A stretch of DNA of 64,000 bases from Methylovulum sp. (lineage in GTDB: Bacteria > Pseudomonadota > Gammaproteobacteria > Methylococcales > Methylomonadaceae). The position numbers and the translations under genes are program-made. The notes beneath the pieces were generated by a model that had not been told where the DNA came from, did not search any database, and saw only the letters and a list, made by a program, of their open reading frames with translations. Positions 40,313 to 48,624 of this stretch are shown here, piece by piece (the first letter of the stretch is position 1; each line of letters begins with the position of its first letter). The stretch is taken from assembly GCA_030653435.1 (NCBI GenBank), contig JAURZI010000123.1, positions 1-64,000 on the forward strand, in the 5' to 3' direction.

Positions 40313-42718
40313 TCATTCCGAACGCAAGCGCAACTCGAACACCTCGGCAGACTCAGCGTGGCCATAGTAATAACCCTGCCCCAGCTCACAGCCCATCGCC
40401 AGCAAGATGTCGGCCTGAGCGGCATTTTCGATGCCCTCGGCAATGACGAGCAAGTCCAGCGATTGCGCCATAGCAATGATGGTCTGTACGATCAAGCGGT
40501 CTTGACCACCCTGTAATAAATTACTCACGAATGCGGCGTCTATTTTGAGTTTTTGTACCGGAAAACGGGTGAGATAACTCAGCGATGAATACCCGGTGCC
40601 AAAATCATCAATGGCTAGCGAAAATTGATACCCGCGCAGAATCCGCAACGTATCAAGCACAGCGCTGTCATTGCTGACCAAACAACCTTCAGTCAGCTCC
40701 AACTCAAGCTGCGGCGCTTCAATAAACGCATCCTGCAAGCGTTCGTGGAAATTGATGCTTTCAATTTCCTGTGTCGATACATTGATAGCCAAACGCCCTG
40801 GCAACGCCAAGCCAGCTGCACGCCAAGCGCGTAGCTGCATGAGGGCGGCACGTAAAACCCAGGCGCCCAACTTGTGCATCAAGCCGCGTTCTTCGGCAAT
40901 CGGTATGAAACGGGCAGGACTAACCCAGCCTAAAAGTTCATCATGCCAGCGCAGCAAAGCTTCGGCACCGATTAGCTCACCGCTGGACAAATTGACCTGC
41001 GGTTGAAAATAAAGCAGCAAGGTATTGCCGGCCAACGCCAGGGTCAGGCGATCCGCGATAAGCACTCGTTCGACCAGTCCTGCACTCATGTCGCTGTGAT
41101 AAAAGAAATAGCCGCCACCCTTCTTCTTGGCGCGATACATCGCAATATCAGCGTATTTGAGCAAATCCTCACACGTACAGCCATCCAGCGGACACATGGC
41201 AATACCTGCACTCAGTCCAACCATTAAGGGTATAGCATTGATCAAGATAGGCCGTTCGGTTAAGGACTGCTGTAATCTTTCAGCCACAATAGCCAATTTT
41301 GTAGCGTCATCCGTTTCAACGATCACGACAAATTCATCGCCCCCCAAACGCGCCAATGTTTCCCCCTGTCTCAAGGATGACTGGAAACGGCGCGCGCTTT
41401 CAATCAATACCTCATCACCGGCATCGTGGCCATGAATATCGTTGATCTCCTTAAAGCGGTTGAGATCAATAAAAATCACCCCGACACCTTGGTGATTACG
41501 TTCCGCATTCGCCAGCGCGAGTTTCATCCGATCCATCAGCAAAGCGCGATTAGGCAAACTCGTCAGCGGGTCAAAGAAAGCCAATTGGGTAATATGGGCT
41601 TCCTGCTGTTTGCGCTCGGTAATGTCGGAAAAAATGCCCACATAGTTTACGATGCCGCCGTTTTCATCACGTACCGTGGAGATCGATAGCCATTCCGGAT
41701 AAACCTCCCCGGATTTGCGGCGGTTCCAAATTTCGCCTTGCCAATGTCCGCATTCGTTAATTTGTTGCCACATGGCGCGATAAAACGCCTTATCTTGACG
41801 CCCAGACCTGATGATACGCGGCGTCTTGCCCATCACCTCATAGGCAGTATAGCCGGTCACTTCCGTAAATGAACGGTTGACGCTGACAATGCGTTCTTGG
41901 GTATCCAGAATAATGACGGCTTCGACGCTTTGCTCGAATACGACAGAAGCAAGGCGTCGGGCATTCTCGTTAGCTTGACGCTCGCTAATATCGGTATAGA
42001 TGAGGACATAATGCGAAGTAATGCCCGAACCATCGCGCACGATGACCGCTGACAACCAACCGGGGAAACTCCGTCCATCCTTGGCATGACATTGCACTTC
42101 ACCCTGCCAGCGCCCGCGATTAATCAGGGCAGTACGAAACATCTGCTGAAAGCAAAGCGTACCCTGCTGGTCAGCCCATAACGCACTAGGTTCATTACCG
42201 ATGAGTTCTTCCGGCAAAAAACCGGTCATTTGCGTAAATGACCGGTTGCCGGACAACAACTTCATGCGCGCATCCAGGATGATAATGGCTTCGGAACTGT
42301 TTTCGAAGACTTTGGCCGCCAGCCGTAAACTTTCTTCCATCTGCTTGCGCTGGGTGATGTCACGCAACTGGGCCAAATACGCCTGCTGCCCATCCCATTC
42401 GGTTTCGGTGACACGCATTTCCACCACCATGGTTTGGCCTACAGGCAGAGGAATATCTAACTCGGCGCGATCAGCGCCGATAACAGGGAAGCCAAAGGGC
42501 GCACCTTGCAAATCTTCTTTCTCCCGACCAAACAGTGTAGCGGCTGCGGGATTGGAAAACAGGATATCGCCGTCATCGCCAACAATGAGAATGCCATCCA
42601 GACTGTTGTTGATGATGTTTTTAAAGCGTAACTCGGAGAGATGGTAGTTATGCCGGTATTTTTGCAGGGCATGAAATTTATGCCGGTGTCTTTGCAGTGG
42701 GGGACGTATGCCGGACAT
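40313..42718 (-). CDS. PAS-PAS-PAS-GGDEF-EAL cyclic-di-GMP enzyme, kaiBC-linked
   Basis: An 801-residue cytoplasmic protein without membrane segments. Three PAS domains (about residues 27-130, 137-260 and 262-385) each end in a DIT/DIS-ERK-type linker. A GGDEF domain follows with intact RLGGDEF (459-463), then an EAL domain with intact EALLRW and IDDFGTGYSSLSYL. Both synthesis and hydrolysis of cyclic-di-GMP are therefore possible. The start lies 8 bases after the kaiC stop, so it is coupled to kaiC. The first 30 residues contain a small tandem duplication (LQRHRHKFH / LQKYRHNYH). The clock-like KaiC partner suggests timed or redox-timed c-di-GMP control; that link is inference. Confidence 0.9.
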   Translation of the reverse strand: MSGIRPPLQRHRHKFHALQKYRHNYHLSELRFKNIINNSLDGILIVGDDGDILFSNPAAATLFGREKEDLQGAPFGFPVIGADRAELDIPLPVGQTMVVEMRVTETEWDGQQAYLAQLRDITQRKQMEESLRLAAKVFENSSEAIIILDARMKLLSGNRSFTQMTGFLPEELIGNEPSALWADQQGTLCFQQMFRTALINRGRWQGEVQCHAKDGRSFPGWLSAVIVRDGSGITSHYVLIYTDISERQANENARRLASVVFEQSVEAVIILDTQERIVSVNRSFTEVTGYTAYEVMGKTPRIIRSGRQDKAFYRAMWQQINECGHWQGEIWNRRKSGEVYPEWLSISTVRDENGGIVNYVGIFSDITERKQQEAHITQLAFFDPLTSLPNRALLMDRMKLALANAERNHQGVGVIFIDLNRFKEINDIHGHDAGDEVLIESARRFQSSLRQGETLARLGGDEFVVIVETDDATKLAIVAERLQQSLTERPILINAIPLMVGLSAGIAMCPLDGCTCEDLLKYADIAMYRAKKKGGGYFFYHSDMSAGLVERVLIADRLTLALAGNTLLLYFQPQVNLSSGELIGAEALLRWHDELLGWVSPARFIPIAEERGLMHKLGAWVLRAALMQLRAWRAAGLALPGRLAINVSTQEIESINFHERLQDAFIEAPQLELELTEGCLVSNDSAVLDTLRILRGYQFSLAIDDFGTGYSSLSYLTRFPVQKLKIDAAFVSNLLQGGQDRLIVQTIIAMAQSLDLLVIAEGIENAAQADILLAMGCELGQGYYYGHAESAEVFELRLRSE

Positions 42719-42726
42719 CGGGTAAC

Positions 42727-44265
42727 CTATATCGTCGTGGTTTTCTTGGATTGCCAGTTCACACAGTCGGTATTGCCGGCATGAGCCGGTGTGACACCGC
42801 CGCCGGTCAATAAATTGACATGACCTCCGAAGGGTTCGCCGATGTGCATGCCTTGACCATCAATAAAATATTCGCGAATCAGTTTTTCGTGCATGGAACC
42901 GCGCATTTTCAGCACAGTAATCGCTCGGCGGATCTGCCCTTCTGACTCGACATAGCGGAGCAGGACGATGGAATCGGTCAACGTCGAGATATGGGCGTCC
43001 GTTACCGATTTACCGCCAATCAGGTCGGGCGTAGTCGCGGTGAACAAGGCCGCCAATTGATGACCTTTGACAAACGAAGCAATGCCAATCACGAACTCGC
43101 GAAAGCCTTTGGCCGACGTGATGCGCTCCAGTGCGGAAATGCTGTCCAGTGCCAAACGATCCGGTTTAAAACGTTCGATCTGGCTCTTGATGGTGGCCAA
43201 ATGATCTTCAAGCGTAGCGTTCTCTGGATAAGCCGAAATGATTTTCAGGGAACCGGATTCCTCCATTTGCTGATAGTCGACGCCCCAACCCTTGGCATTG
43301 CGATAAAGTTGTTCCCTGCTTTCTTCAAAAGCCAACAGCAAACACCGTTCACCGCTATTCACACCACCTGCGGTGAATTCCGTTACCATCAGCGTTTTTC
43401 CGGTACCGGTGGCGCCCGAAACCAGAATGATCGAATCGCGAAAAATGCCTCCGCCGCACATGGTGTCCAGCATGGTATTACCCGAACTGACGCGCACATC
43501 CGTAGATTGTTGGTTAAGTTTAATAGCGGACAGGGGGACGACAATAAGCCCCTCTTCAGGCACCACGGTAAAGGGATATTCCCCTTTATGATGGTAAGTG
43601 CCGCGAAATTTAAGGATTTCGATAGTGCGATGGCGAATTTGCTCGTCCAGGCCATTACGCAGAATAACAACGTTGTCGGCGACGAACTCCTCGACGCCGA
43701 AGCGGGCAATATTGCCGTACTCCTGTTCGCGCTCCGAAGTCATCACCGTAGTAACCTGCATTTGCTTCATAACGGTTGCGATACGCAAGAGCTCCAGGCG
43801 AATGGCGCGGGTTTCCTGGAATTGCGTAAAAATAGCCCCTAATGAATCGATGGCAACCCGCACCGCCTGTACTTTCCCTATGGCATACTGCAAGCGCAAC
43901 AAAAAAGCACCCAGATCATAAGCGCCAGTTACCACCATATCGTCTTCGTAGTGGGGCGAGGCATCCACGAACACCCACTTCCCGGCCGCTTCCCAAGCCG
44001 GAATATCCCATCCCAACGAAGCCATATTACGACGAATATCTTCGGGTGGTTCCTCAAAGGTCACGAAAACACCGGAATGCCCCCATTGCCGGATGCCTTC
44101 CGCCAGAAATTGCGCGGCGAATACGCTTTTGCCGCTACCCGCAGTGCCTGACACTAATGTGGCTCGGTGAATAGGCAGGCCGCCGACGGCAATCAGATCA
44201 AAACCTGGGATACCCGTAGTCAGTTTTTCCACGGCGCCAGCAATAGAGTAATCGTTCATAGTCAT
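42727..44265 (-). CDS. kaiC: KaiC-type circadian-clock ATPase/autokinase
   Basis: A 512-residue double-RecA protein (cyanobacterial KaiC 519). Walker A motifs are GTAGSGKS (residues 40-47, CI) and GATGTGKT (284-291, CII). Glu pairs occur in FEEPPEDI (71-72) and FEESREQL (314-315). The CII phosphorylation segment reads VTDAHIST, so the equivalents of cyanobacterial Thr426, Ser431 and Thr432 are present as Thr422, Ser427 and Thr428. Autokinase activity is thus plausible. kaiB lies 18 bases upstream and a GGDEF-EAL gene 8 bases downstream; no kaiA is in the window. Confidence 0.93.
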   Translation of the reverse strand: MTMNDYSIAGAVEKLTTGIPGFDLIAVGGLPIHRATLVSGTAGSGKSVFAAQFLAEGIRQWGHSGVFVTFEEPPEDIRRNMASLGWDIPAWEAAGKWVFVDASPHYEDDMVVTGAYDLGAFLLRLQYAIGKVQAVRVAIDSLGAIFTQFQETRAIRLELLRIATVMKQMQVTTVMTSEREQEYGNIARFGVEEFVADNVVILRNGLDEQIRHRTIEILKFRGTYHHKGEYPFTVVPEEGLIVVPLSAIKLNQQSTDVRVSSGNTMLDTMCGGGIFRDSIILVSGATGTGKTLMVTEFTAGGVNSGERCLLLAFEESREQLYRNAKGWGVDYQQMEESGSLKIISAYPENATLEDHLATIKSQIERFKPDRLALDSISALERITSAKGFREFVIGIASFVKGHQLAALFTATTPDLIGGKSVTDAHISTLTDSIVLLRYVESEGQIRRAITVLKMRGSMHEKLIREYFIDGQGMHIGEPFGGHVNLLTGGGVTPAHAGNTDCVNWQSKKTTTI

Positions 44266-44283
44266 TATTAGGATGCTTCGGTT

Positions 44284-44580
44284 TTAGTTGGGGTTAACCG
44301 GTGATAGGTCTTGGCGAATATCCAACCCCAGCAAGACTTTTTCCGTTTCCGACAAATCGCCGATCAAACGACGCAACGGTGGCGGCAATATTTTAATCAG
44401 CGTCGGTGTGGCAAGGATGCGCTCATCCTCCGCCAATTGAGGATGTTCGAGAATGTCGATAATTTCAATCTCATATTGCTTATCAAGATTTTCTTCGCAG
44501 ATTTGGCGCAGATTACGGATGGCGTTTTCCGAGCGTGGCGTTTTGCCGGTTATATAGAGTTTTAGCTGAAATTTGCTCAT
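44284..44580 (-). CDS. kaiB: KaiB-type clock protein
   Basis: A 98-residue thioredoxin-like KaiB protein (cyanobacterial KaiB about 102). The conserved pattern LKLYITGKTPRSENAIRNL, YEIEIIDILEHPQLAEDERI and LATPTLIKILPPPLRRLIGD is complete. KaiB binds the CI ring of KaiC and resets its phosphorylation. It is the first gene of the kaiB-kaiC-GGDEF/EAL operon. Confidence 0.93.
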   Translation of the reverse strand: MSKFQLKLYITGKTPRSENAIRNLRQICEENLDKQYEIEIIDILEHPQLAEDERILATPTLIKILPPPLRRLIGDLSETEKVLLGLDIRQDLSPVNPN

Positions 44581-44911: not shown

Positions 44912-45841
44912 ATGAGTGAAAAAAAATTTAGGCTGGTAACCCGCAGTGATTTTGACGGCTTGATCTGTGCTGTTTTATTGAAGGAAATTGATCTGATTGA
45001 CGACATTTTGTTCGTACATCCTAAAGATATGCAAGACGGCAAAATAGCCATTAGCGATAATGACATTACGACCAACCTGCCTTATGTTCATGGCGTACAT
45101 CTCGCTTTTGACCATCACTTGAGCGAAACCATACGTAATGCCAAACAGGACAACCACATCATTGACCCGGATGCCCCGTCAGCGGCCCGTGTTGTTTATG
45201 ATTATTATGGTGGCGACAAACGATTTCCTGCCAGTTGGAATGACATGATGGCGGCGGTGGATAAAGGCGATGCCGCACAATTCAGCAGGGAAGAAATCCT
45301 AAACCCTGACGGATGGGTGTTGATGAATTTCCTGATGGATGCCAGGACCGGCTTAGGGCGGTTTAGGGAGTTCAGCATTTCCAATTATCAATTAATGATG
45401 AATTTAATTGATTATTGCAAAAACCATCATATCGATGACGTGTTAAAGCTGCCCGATGTCATCGAGCGGATTAGCTTATACCGGGAGCATGAGACTGCGG
45501 CGAAAGAGCAAATACAGCGCTGTGCGACGATCCATGGCAATCTGCTGGTGTTGGATTTACGCAATGAAGAGCTCATCTACGCGGTCAATCGCTTTATGGT
45601 TTACGCACTATTCCCCGACTGTAACATTTCCATCCATGTCATGTGGGGATTAAAACAGCAGAACACCGTTTTTGCGATAGGTAAATCAATACTTAACCGT
45701 AGCTCCAACACCAATATTGGCGAGTTATGCTTACGCTACAACGGCGGCGGCCATTTAAATGCGGGCACTTGCCAAGTGGATAATGAGCAAAGCGAACAGA
45801 TCCTGCAGGAAATTATCCTGGCTATCAATACCGATGGCTAG
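44912..45841 (+). CDS. DHH-family phosphoesterase (exopolyphosphatase/oligoribonuclease-like)
   Basis: A 309-residue cytoplasmic protein with the DHH superfamily metal motifs: TRSDFDG near residues 11-16, FDHHLSE near 67-72 and the DHHA1 glycine motif NGGGHLNAG near 285. Members hydrolyse short RNA or DNA fragments, cyclic dinucleotides or polyphosphate. Which substrate this one uses cannot be decided. Because it faces a c-di-GMP/Kai operon across a shared spacer, a nucleotide-second-messenger role is possible but not shown. Confidence 0.83.
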   Translation: MSEKKFRLVTRSDFDGLICAVLLKEIDLIDDILFVHPKDMQDGKIAISDNDITTNLPYVHGVHLAFDHHLSETIRNAKQDNHIIDPDAPSAARVVYDYYGGDKRFPASWNDMMAAVDKGDAAQFSREEILNPDGWVLMNFLMDARTGLGRFREFSISNYQLMMNLIDYCKNHHIDDVLKLPDVIERISLYREHETAAKEQIQRCATIHGNLLVLDLRNEELIYAVNRFMVYALFPDCNISIHVMWGLKQQNTVFAIGKSILNRSSNTNIGELCLRYNGGGHLNAGTCQVDNEQSEQILQEIILAINTDG

Positions 45842-46248
45842 CGGCTGAGGGCAACCGGCGTTTCCGGCAACAGCACGAGTACCGGAAACGCTTATCCCCA
45901 CTCATTTACGAACAACCACCCGCCACAGTTATGCTATCGTGCCTTCTTAATGACGAATAGCCTCGCCGACCACGCCCGCTCCAGCTTGCCATCATTTTCC
46001 CCACTGTTTTAAACCCTCCCTAAAAAACCAGCGCCTTAAATATATTTTTGAACCTTTCCCGGTCGCCACGGAAATAACACGGCAAGGGCAAGGTAACACA
46101 TTGCCCTGTCAACTTCCGGCGCTTTGCCCGGAGAGCTCACGCGCGCCCACATTGCCGCTGGAGCCATTATTAACTTTGCAGTTTTGCGCTGTCGTGAGGG
46201 CATGCCAAGACTTGCTTGACATCCGCTAACCTGGAGGAGAACAACTGT
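45842..46248. other. Intergenic stretch upstream of the di-haem protein gene
   Basis: 407 bases. Near the left end GCGTTTCCGG (45858-45867) and CCGGAAACGC (45882-45891) form a 10-bp stem that may terminate the DHH transcript, although the T-tract is poor. Near the right end GGAGGAGA (46232-46239) is a strong ribosome binding site. Nothing else is recognised. Confidence 0.5.
45858..45891 (+). terminator. Candidate terminator of the DHH gene
   Basis: Perfect 10-bp stem GCGTTTCCGG/CCGGAAACGC with a 14-base loop, 17 bases after the DHH stop codon. The following sequence has few T, so efficiency is doubtful. Confidence 0.5.
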
Positions 46249-48624
46249 ATGAACCAGAAAATAACATCGGCTAGCCCTGAGCTGCGGGGCATCTTTAACC
46301 TAGCGAAGCTGGCTGCAACGCTGGCGCTGGCTTTGGCAACAGGGGCTGCGGACGCAGAATCCAGCCATTCAAGCACTATCGCAATGACTAAAGATGAAAG
46401 CCACCTGATCAATCTGAATCAAGATAACCATTCCATCACCGTATTTAAAGTTAACGCCGCCGGCAACGCTGGCAATGCGCTGAAAAAAGTGGCTGAAATC
46501 GCCGTGGGCTTTGAGCCCCAGTGCGTCGCTATTAAGCCGGATGACAGCGAGGCTTATATCACCACAGCCGACGGCTCGGTCGTCGTGGTTGCCCTTGCAG
46601 CAGGGGATACGCCTTTTTCAATCCTCAAGCGCATTGCGGTAGGCACAGAACCACGCGGCTGTGCGTTGACACCTACCGGCAATGTGCTTTATGTCGCCAA
46701 CCATACTTCGGGTACGGTTTCTATTATCGACACCGCGCAACGTTCGGTGATTAAAACCGTGGCTGGTTTTAACCGTCCTTATGCGGTTGCCATTTCTGAT
46801 GATGGTGATACCGAAGACACCGATGAAACCATTTTTGTCAGCGACTTCCTGGCCGAAGTGATTCCTAATGGCCCTGGCGAACCTTTTGATAACGGCAAAC
46901 GCGGGGTGATTCGCGCATTCCCATTCGGGCTGGCGGTGTTTTTGAAAAAAATCATCTTGTCACCGCTGACAGATGCCGGCTTTACTGCGGATCGCAGCGC
47001 ACTATGCCCCATACCCAACCCCAATGTCCACGATACGGTTTATTGCCCTGATGTCACCGGCGCTGTGGGCGACCCTGATCTGGTCAATGCCCCGCAAGGC
47101 GCTTTCCCGAACCAACTGCATGCCTTGCTGTTCCATGACAATAAACTATACGTGCCCAGCATAGGCGCCGCGCCCGCACCGCCCGTCAAATTCAATGTCA
47201 ACGTCCAGGCGCTGGTGCATGTCGTCAACCCTGCTGCATTGGCGGAAATCAAAGCGGGCACCGTCAACCTCAACGCCCAGATCAAAACCGAAATAGCGCC
47301 CGCCGACCCGTTCAGCAGTCTCGGCAAGCTGTTCGCTAACGACATCGTCGCGATGGATGCCAAAGCCAATAAGTTCGCACTGGTCAGCCGGGGCGGCAAC
47401 TATGTTTTGCGTGCCGGGCTGACCGGTGGCAAACTCGACATCGGCGCGCCGGATAAGGTCGTGCGTTTACAAACCGGCCATATACCCACCGGCATAGTCA
47501 TCAGCGGTAACGGCAGTCGTGCCTATACCAACAACTCGGTCGGACGCTCCGTGTCCGTGCTTAATCTGGATAACAACACGGTCGTTGCCCGCGATATTGA
47601 ATCAACGGTGTTGCCGCTAATCGGCAGTTTCGAGCACAACTTGCTAATGGGTAAGCTGGCGTTTTTTACCGCATTGGGGCTACCGGACAATGGCTTGTCC
47701 AAACTCGCCATACGCAGCATTGACCCGCTGGCATTTCGCGGCAAGCAATCAGATAATGCCTGGAGCAGTTGCGCGTCCTGTCACCCGGCCGGCCTTGCCG
47801 ACGGCGTCACCTGGATATTTGCCGACGGCCCGCGCCAGACCATTCCGCTGGACAGCACCTACTCCAAACGCAGCGCCGCACACGATACGCGGATCTTAAA
47901 CTGGAGCGCGGTGCGCGGCAGCAACACCGATTTCAATAATAATTCCCGTGGCGTACAAGGCGGCATCGGTTTTGCCAGTACCGCACCGTTTACCGCAGCG
48001 ACACCCAACCCCAATATTTTTAACCACGGCATCACCCAAGGCGCCAGCGAAGCGCTGGACGACGAAACCTTATGGATACAAAGCATACGTCCGCTGCAAA
48101 TGCCGCAACAAACCAATGTCAGTGCAGGCAGGGCGGTGTTTGACAGTAACTGCGCCTCATGTCACGGCGGCGCAAAATGGACCAAAAGCCAAATCCTCTA
48201 CCGCGATAACCCGGCACTGGTTGCAGGCGCACCGCGCGATCCTGGCGTGACGCTTGCGGCTAGCGGCGGCGGGCAAATCCAGTCTTACACCCTGGATGGC
48301 AACACCCTCAACTATCTCGAAAAAATAGATACATTCCTGGCTGACAATCCTCTTGAAATCAGGGCCAACGGCCTGACGGCGTTGGGTACGGATGGGTTTA
48401 ATGTGCCGTCCTTGCTGGGTGTGCGTTATCATGCGCCATATCTTCATAACGGCTCGGCCACGCAATTGGGTGACGTGTTCAAAACCCATAAACTGAACGG
48501 CAGCACGATTGCCGACGCGCTGAATGCCGCGCAAGAAGCCGATCTGCTGAAGTTCCTGAACACGATAGATGCGCGTACAGAACCCTTCCGCTCTGAGGGC
48601 GACGACTTCAGGGATCCCTTTTAA
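46249..48624 (+). CDS. Beta-propeller (YVTN-type) di-haem cytochrome c peroxidase-like protein
   Basis: A 791-residue exported protein. The start ATG at 46249 has GGAGGAGA upstream and gives a clear signal peptide (LAATLALALATGAADA). Residues about 40-470 are propeller repeats (YVANHTSGTVSIIDTAQRSV, GNGSRAYTNNSVGRSVSVLN). The C-terminal third carries two c-type haem sites, Cys508-x-x-CysHis512 and Cys635-x-x-CysHis639, in a MauG/bacterial cytochrome c peroxidase-like context (HAPYLHNGSATQLGDVF). It is probably periplasmic or surface-bound and handles peroxide or another oxidant, or electron transfer. Methanotrophs are known for surface-associated cytochrome c peroxidases; closeness to those is not tested here. 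Confidence 0.85.
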   Translation: MNQKITSASPELRGIFNLAKLAATLALALATGAADAESSHSSTIAMTKDESHLINLNQDNHSITVFKVNAAGNAGNALKKVAEIAVGFEPQCVAIKPDDSEAYITTADGSVVVVALAAGDTPFSILKRIAVGTEPRGCALTPTGNVLYVANHTSGTVSIIDTAQRSVIKTVAGFNRPYAVAISDDGDTEDTDETIFVSDFLAEVIPNGPGEPFDNGKRGVIRAFPFGLAVFLKKIILSPLTDAGFTADRSALCPIPNPNVHDTVYCPDVTGAVGDPDLVNAPQGAFPNQLHALLFHDNKLYVPSIGAAPAPPVKFNVNVQALVHVVNPAALAEIKAGTVNLNAQIKTEIAPADPFSSLGKLFANDIVAMDAKANKFALVSRGGNYVLRAGLTGGKLDIGAPDKVVRLQTGHIPTGIVISGNGSRAYTNNSVGRSVSVLNLDNNTVVARDIESTVLPLIGSFEHNLLMGKLAFFTALGLPDNGLSKLAIRSIDPLAFRGKQSDNAWSSCASCHPAGLADGVTWIFADGPRQTIPLDSTYSKRSAAHDTRILNWSAVRGSNTDFNNNSRGVQGGIGFASTAPFTAATPNPNIFNHGITQGASEALDDETLWIQSIRPLQMPQQTNVSAGRAVFDSNCASCHGGAKWTKSQILYRDNPALVAGAPRDPGVTLAASGGGQIQSYTLDGNTLNYLEKIDTFLADNPLEIRANGLTALGTDGFNVPSLLGVRYHAPYLHNGSATQLGDVFKTHKLNGSTIADALNAAQEADLLKFLNTIDARTEPFRSEGDDFRDPF

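Follow-up and report, generated by a model that had tools for sequence, protein, structure and literature searches.

The window analysed here is the first 64,000 nucleotides of contig JAURZI010000123.1 of a Methylovulum sp. (assembly GCA_030653435.1). It carries an operon-like group of three genes, all on the minus strand: kaiB (44284..44580, 98 residues), kaiC (42727..44265, 512 residues) and a gene for a putative output protein with the architecture PAS-PAS-PAS-GGDEF-EAL (40313..42718, 801 residues). The intergenic gaps are 18 and 8 bases, and the genes are presumably cotranscribed. This layout had been described in an initial annotation of the window and is borne out by the open reading frame coordinates and by Pfam and NCBIfam matches. 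The host assembly has a length of 4.66 Mb and a completeness of 99.95%. It encodes a subunit of the particulate methane monooxygenase/ammonia monooxygenase family (PF02461), so the earlier description of the host as a probable methanotroph stands. The family is present in 7 of the 8 genomes tested, the one without it being a 2.9 Mb draft (G176).

The Kai proteins and their distribution

KaiB is recognised by PF07689 (8.5e-31; 106 bits, cut-off 27) and PRK09301 (111.4 bits, cut-off 110), and falls below the stricter TIGR02654 (106.9 bits, cut-off 145.3). KaiC matches PRK09302 (679.8 bits, cut-off 408), TIGR02655 (598.1 bits, cut-off 546.25) and, twice, PF06745; its closest solved structure is 8zn5 (645.8 bits), with further KaiCs next. 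Both Walker A motifs are present on the minus strand, GTAGSGKS in CI (44125..44148, residues 40-47) and GATGTGKT in CII (43393..43416, residues 284-291). The CII phosphorylation segment, VTDAHIST (42982..43005, minus strand, residues 421-428), was aligned with cyanobacterial KaiC, the solved Thermosynechococcus protein serving as the reference. T422, S427 and T428 align with Thr426, Ser431 and Thr432, the phosphorylation residues of the cyanobacterial protein. The alignment agrees with the initial annotation, which had named the Walker A motifs and these three equivalents, and both catalytic EE pairs are there as well.

With E<=1e-120 as the limit and the host genome always counted, KaiC turns up in 8 of the 311 genomes searched for the order, in 7 of 369 for the class and in 23 of 398 for the phylum; within the genus of the window, 3 of 20 genomes carry it. 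The eight genomes of the order comprise the window clade, the KaiCs of which are 86-90% identical to that of the window, and the pair G144 and G198 (61%). The window clade consists of the host (G000), G176 (92% complete), G184, G034, G076 (73% complete) and G634; loci L004-L008, which are contigs of G184, G076, G176, G034 and G634, were counted once. The three phosphorylation residues and both EE pairs are retained in all six KaiCs of the clade. Conservation of the gene order in Methylococcales relatives, proposed as a check in the initial annotation, was found in all six clade genomes among the 311 searched, with the three genes on one strand. Measured to the predicted gene starts, the first gap ranges from 10 to 21 bases and the second from -16 to 15. 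The same order occurs in G144 and G198 behind a KaiA-like gene, the output gene of G198 ending abruptly near the contig end.

A KaiC tree was built from 53 rows, including five KaiC2-type loci, L062 and L072 and leaving out the broken second kaiC copies of L109 and L119. The window KaiC groups in it with cyanobacterial KaiC, apart from the KaiC2 type, at 100/100; the cyanobacterial side is a single KaiC1 row, so that the grouping does not tell KaiC1 from KaiC3. The C-terminal tail of the window KaiC is short and lacks the KaiC2-type extension of about 50 residues. A second kai locus is found on contig C67 of the host genome (L062:4094-8900) with kaiC, kaiB and a gene for a PAS-GAF-GGDEF-EAL protein of 926 residues. 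Its KaiC, of 580 residues, is 28% identical to the KaiC of the operon and its KaiB 35% identical to the operon KaiB; the alignment shows its tail to be long, with neither the CII EE pair nor a counterpart of Thr426 present.

KaiA and the C-terminal tail of KaiC

KaiA was not detected in the host genome, where the highest PF07688 score, 11.8 bits, is well below the cut-off of 22.2. A profile of the KaiA-like C-domain built here from eight sequences (A2), which remote forms may escape, found nothing at E<=10 in the six window-clade genomes. It matches G144 (9.8e-44) and G198 (1.3e-43), the proteins of both being members of the profile. A larger profile (A3), made from 31 of 32 matches with a short L109 fragment left out, matches two of the 311 genomes of the order, again G144 and G198. 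The lack of kaiA noted in the initial annotation is upheld genome-wide by PF07688 and A2, and the KaiA component of a KaiABC oscillator was not found.

At most related loci, kaiB has a KaiA-like gene next to it. In the majority it encodes a REC-KaiA protein similar to KaiA3; such genes lie beside kaiB/kaiC in the Pseudomonadota loci L054, L055, L058, L061, L100-L115 and L118-L122, with none in L116 and L117. Two genomes from the family to which the window belongs have a gene for a fusion of a protoglobin with a KaiA-like C-domain (L056:2815-3909 and L057:3051-4109, plus strand). In this globin pair, G144 and G198, the gene before kaiB overlaps kaiB by 4 bases, and the protoglobin part matches PF11563 (1.6e-33 and 4.2e-33).

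The C-domain of the globin protein aligns with that of the REC proteins beside kaiB (hhalign E 1.8e-26), and no Pfam family was assigned to it (L056). Pfam KaiA is matched by 4 of the 31 alignment members (best 1.7e-4), one full protein reaching 19.9 bits against the cut-off of 22.2. Compared with three cyanobacterial KaiA domains by hhalign, the 31-row profile gave E 0.001 over 87 columns, the full length of the domain, with a probability of only 21%; of 40 column-shuffled controls the best reached E 0.058. When limited to the two globin rows, the comparison gave E 0.0038 over 34 columns. Among PDB profiles, A2 matches KaiA at 0.012 and RsbU at 0.017, and A3 matches RsbU at 0.029 and KaiA at 0.043. 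Because the N-terminal domain of RsbU has the same fold and similar scores, "KaiA-like" is the safe wording; the assignment also rests on the position of the gene in front of kaiB.

The REC-KaiA architecture is that of KaiA3, which has been reported from 15 species of cyanobacteria and five further genera (PMC11372060). Like the KaiA3-KaiB3-KaiC3 system described in 2024, most relatives of the operon have a REC-KaiA chimera before kaiB, whereas the window clade has no KaiA and its two family relatives have a protoglobin in place of REC (PMC11372060). "Evolution of kaiA" (2021) lists OmpR, REC, AtoC or PHA02030 as KaiA N-termini and places KaiA in other bacteria as well, two of them named; its main text makes no use of the word globin (PMC8113500). 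No report of a globin-KaiA protein was found in the literature searched, which covered few subscription papers.

The tail of KaiC changes together with the KaiA-like gene. All 31 KaiC-tree rows with a KaiA-like gene at the locus have a short tail in which [ML]F stands close to the end (30 by regular expression, the 31st, L101b, ending in ELESMFGVE); none of the 14 rows without such a gene has it, one of them, L070, being cut short. These counts exclude KaiC2-type and cyanobacterial rows, and no p-value is given as the rows are mutually related. The window KaiC lacks the tail type of its KaiA-bearing relatives and has instead the clade-specific motif CVNWQ (42751..42765, minus strand, residues 501-505), all six KaiCs of the clade having C-[VS]-N-W-Q in their tails. 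The tail of cyanobacterial KaiC is the binding place of KaiA; the absence of KaiA and the alteration of the tail on which it docks thus go together.

In the KaiC tree the window clade has a support of 100/100 and a long stem of 0.74 changes per column. It is sister (91/54) to a group of the globin pair and 18 REC-KaiA rows, the joint node having 92/81. Since KaiA-like genes are present in deeper branches as well, the most economical interpretation is a loss in the window clade: a KaiA-type activator probably once stood in front of kaiB and was secondarily lost. Two other groups branching just outside have no KaiA-like gene within the fetched stretch, so KaiA may alternatively have been lost earlier and later regained.

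A further explanation, which is unlikely, is that a KaiA activity persists in the clade in unrecognised form, either as a different protein or through the output protein acting on the changed KaiC tail. The motif C-[VS]-N-W-Q is constant in all six clade KaiCs while the neighbouring residues vary, which suggests a binding partner. Against this explanation stand the searches with A2, with the reservation on remote forms made above, and the fact that KaiA-free KaiBC systems are on record (PMC10076222).

The first PAS domain and the c-di-GMP domains

The output protein consists of PAS1 (42323..42637, residues 28-132), PAS2 (41960..42322, residues 133-253), PAS3 (41594..41956, residues 255-375), GGDEF (41117..41581, residues 380-534; PF00990, 1.6e-44) and EAL (40358..41050, residues 557-787; PF00563, 5.1e-68), all on the minus strand. 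Its N-terminus contains an imperfect His/Arg-rich repeat (QRHRHKFHALQKYRHNYH; 42632-42694, minus strand), which is partly present in G176 and absent from the other four clade members.

PAS1 belongs to a kai-associated PAS subtype and is a candidate Kai-coupling domain; PAS3 is of a common PAS type. When each domain was used as a separate query, the matches of PAS1 outside the window clade and the globin pair all came from kai loci (34-87 bits), whereas the next matches of PAS2, PAS3, GGDEF and EAL include other proteins of the host genome. The best PAS1 score in the other GGDEF loci examined in this genome is 20.9. PAS1 reaches at least 33 bits in 37 of the 41 stretches with the window type of KaiC (36 of 40 plus the window; missing in L055, L058, L061 and L108), and it is found in hybrid histidine kinases as well as in GGDEF proteins. 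None of 26 loci with KaiC2-type or distant KaiC, most of which have a flank of only about 1.5 kb, contains it, the best score being 11.4 bits. An AlphaFold2 model of PAS1 made from six sequences had a mean predicted local distance difference test score of 40.5 and was discarded.

Since the first set of loci had been chosen for kai loci, PAS1 was tested outside it, on plasmids and genomes. The window PAS1 has two matches among 72,556 plasmid records, both on kai plasmids with a kaiC of the same type within 2 kb; as controls in these records, PAS2 matches 92 and PAS3 1,489. The same two plasmids lead with the PAS1 of L106, which matches five plasmids, and among the 10 matches listed of the 28 plasmids found with the PAS1 of L057 (96 and 92 bits). 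A third such kai plasmid (Aquisphaera) scores 54 bits in the latter search. A PAS1 profile (A4), made from the window domain and 35 of 55 domain matches at 33 bits or more, gave 56 places with at least 75 bits in 386 genomes, 48 of them within 10 kb of kaiB or kaiC; most of these places fed the profile. In two genomes, G855 (L200:7089-7394) and G852 (L201:6734-7039), a KaiB-like gene stands right before a PAS1-type gene, with no kaiC in 13 kb.

The concentration of PAS1 bears on the possibility, a distinctly improbable one, that the output protein senses a ligand of its own through its PAS domains and has only a promoter in common with kaiBC, with no physical coupling. The wider spread of PAS2 and PAS3 among plasmids is in keeping with this, as are the 38 GGDEF matches in the host genome, many of them in long open frames. 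Against it, PAS1 is common to histidine kinases of other kai loci which have neither GGDEF nor EAL.

In general, GGDEF and EAL domains make and break c-di-GMP (cyclic di-GMP), respectively, through the residues of their conserved motifs. In the output protein, inspection confirms the statement of the initial annotation that these motifs are intact: LGGDEF in the one, and EAL, ELTE, DDFGTGYSS, LKID and GQG in the other. The protein is therefore predicted to be bifunctional. GGDEF is intact in all six clade members, and EAL is lost in two. In G034 the reading frame ends right after GGDEF, with a short EAL remnant past the stop; in G076 the frame ends earlier than in G034, with no EAL remnant in the little DNA left on the contig. 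These two losses of EAL with retention of GGDEF suggest that synthesis of c-di-GMP is the constrained function. Such an in-frame stop past GGDEF, with a short EAL remnant beyond it, was seen at L066:9055 (plus strand). The inhibitory I-site of GGDEF domains has the motif RxxD. At the position before GGDEF, five clade members have RQGE and one has RHGE, and the pair G144/G198 has RDGD/REGD; product feedback may thus be weakened in the window clade.

A GGDEF gene is present in 25 of the 41 stretches with the window KaiC type (6.4 to 16 kb each, 18 kb in the case of the window). In a GGDEF tree made by a quick method, 14 domains from REC-KaiA loci form one clade (100); the domains of the window clade (100) and those of the globin pair (99) stand apart from it. 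A single origin of the GGDEF domains of all kai loci is rejected on this tree. It seems that kai loci were combined with different cyclases, PAS1 being the common part.

Five window proteins flanking the operon have no match (E<=1e-5) in the eight loci examined, which are short contigs. Because the flanking proteins do not recur beside it, the operon may travel as a cassette. On the plus strand, an open reading frame of 802 residues with two CxxCH haem motifs (46216-48624) lies downstream of one of 309 residues (44912-45841). Terminator-like patterns around the operon are no commoner than expected by chance (3 against 6.4).

A proposed coupling of KaiBC to c-di-GMP

Genes of this type directly 3' of kaiBC have been noted before. 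The initial annotation regarded a link between Kai proteins and c-di-GMP as new, but histidine kinase or GGDEF/EAL genes in this position outside cyanobacteria were published by De Luca et al. in 2011 (PMC3164672). As in the window, kaiB and kaiC are clustered there, GGDEF/EAL genes lie directly downstream and the phosphorylatable residues are kept; unlike for the window clade, the available text mentions neither a loss of KaiA nor an exchanged tail nor a PAS subtype in common (PMC3164672). The proposed KaiC-interacting module RtaNt of the same paper is likened to a receiver domain, SasA and KaiB and belongs to loci without kaiB (PMC3164672). The loss of KaiA with the change of the tail, the PAS1 subtype concentrated at kai loci and the EAL losses were not found in the literature searched, with its few subscription papers. 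Loza-Correa and colleagues are said to have described in 2014 a kaiB-kaiC operon without kaiA in Legionella pneumophila, reportedly with a PAS/GGDEF/EAL gene in it. The KaiC of this organism is counted among KaiC2 homologues (PMC5520375), to which type that of the window does not belong. The KaiBC hourglass of Rhodobacter sphaeroides (2023) is KaiA-free, as in the window, and is reset by the ATP-to-ADP ratio; its KaiC is of the KaiC2 type with a long coiled-coil C-tail, whereas the window KaiC is of another type and its tail short (PMC10076222). In Synechococcus elongatus, c-di-GMP alters the period and phase of the clock (PMC13001216).

The reading preferred here, the probability of which we consider evenly balanced, is that the operon encodes a KaiA-free KaiB-KaiC module, the state of which is turned into a level of c-di-GMP by the neighbouring PAS-GGDEF-EAL protein. 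KaiC would autophosphorylate in the absence of KaiA, with its A-loop and tail in another setting than those of KaiA-driven KaiC. KaiB would bind and reset KaiC, as an hourglass-like timer or a gauge of ATP and ADP. PAS1 may be what connects the module to c-di-GMP: it would dock on KaiC or KaiB, and the docking would shift the balance between diguanylate cyclase and phosphodiesterase.

Another explanation, a plausible one that falls somewhat short of even probability, is that KaiBC is a regulator of stress or energy state rather than a timer, as reported for Legionella and Pseudomonas homologues, with the GGDEF-EAL protein as its effector. Stress roles of non-cyanobacterial KaiB and KaiC are cited in PMC11372060 and PMC5520375, no feature of the sequence demands a period of 24 h, and in R. 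sphaeroides it is the ATP-to-ADP ratio that resets the hourglass (PMC10076222). On the other side, the phosphorylation residues and EE pairs are as in cyanobacterial KaiC throughout the clade, which alone is no proof of timing.

Several points weigh against the coupling of a KaiA-free module to c-di-GMP. The minus strand 5' of kaiB has no sigma-70-like pattern, the total for the region being 7 against 6.9 by chance. A retained EAL domain can serve binding rather than catalysis, and the host genome has 38 GGDEF matches, as noted above. The window-clade and globin-pair GGDEF domains are not grouped as a single clade (weak support). For PAS3, GGDEF and EAL, some other proteins of the host genome are as similar as the globin pair or more so; the outputs may thus have been swapped. 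The L106 and L057 PAS1 queries also match non-kai plasmids at lower scores, 50-59 bits for the other three plasmids of L106 and at most 64 for the others listed for L057. Eight of the 56 PAS1 places have no kaiB or kaiC within 10 kb in the DNA fetched, so that the domain is enriched at kai loci and not exclusive to them. Three of the eight (G839, G776 and G835) lie at the edge of a contig or on one shorter than 7 kb, and a fourth, in G689, has kaiC on the same contig 49 kb off. In genomes which did not feed A4, only five of 10 places with at least 75 bits are beside kai genes (two in G843, and one each in G758, G852 and G855), those in G677, G689, G721, G1028 and G1039 being the others. Five places under 75 bits were inspected (G720, G890, G679, G879 and C49 of the host) and no kai gene was seen. 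Exclusivity of PAS1 to kai loci is ruled out by the kai-less genome places and the non-kai plasmids, and PAS1 is best read as a kai-associated PAS domain with some free copies.

A more far-reaching version of the coupling proposal, which is rather unlikely as a whole, would make PAS1 a dedicated Kai-docking adaptor that, throughout Pseudomonadota (and in Aquisphaera), histidine kinases have in common with diguanylate cyclases, taking the role which the KaiB-like domain has in SasA. In the window clade the KaiA arm would have been lost and the tail rebuilt as C-[VS]-N-W-Q, which would bind the output protein or sense redox. The oscillator would have turned into a two-protein gauge setting c-di-GMP directly. 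In the related lineage the globin-KaiA protein may sense oxygen or another gas, so that in these methanotrophs the phase of the Kai proteins may be set by gas supply.

The signal output of Kai proteins outside cyanobacteria would gain, in a PAS subtype recurring at kai loci before unrelated effectors, a concrete and testable coupling module. The absence of KaiA together with the altered KaiC tail would amount to a natural experiment on the KaiA-independent working of KaiC. The protoglobin-KaiA fusion, for its part, would in methane oxidisers tie a clock activator to a gas, be it oxygen or another.

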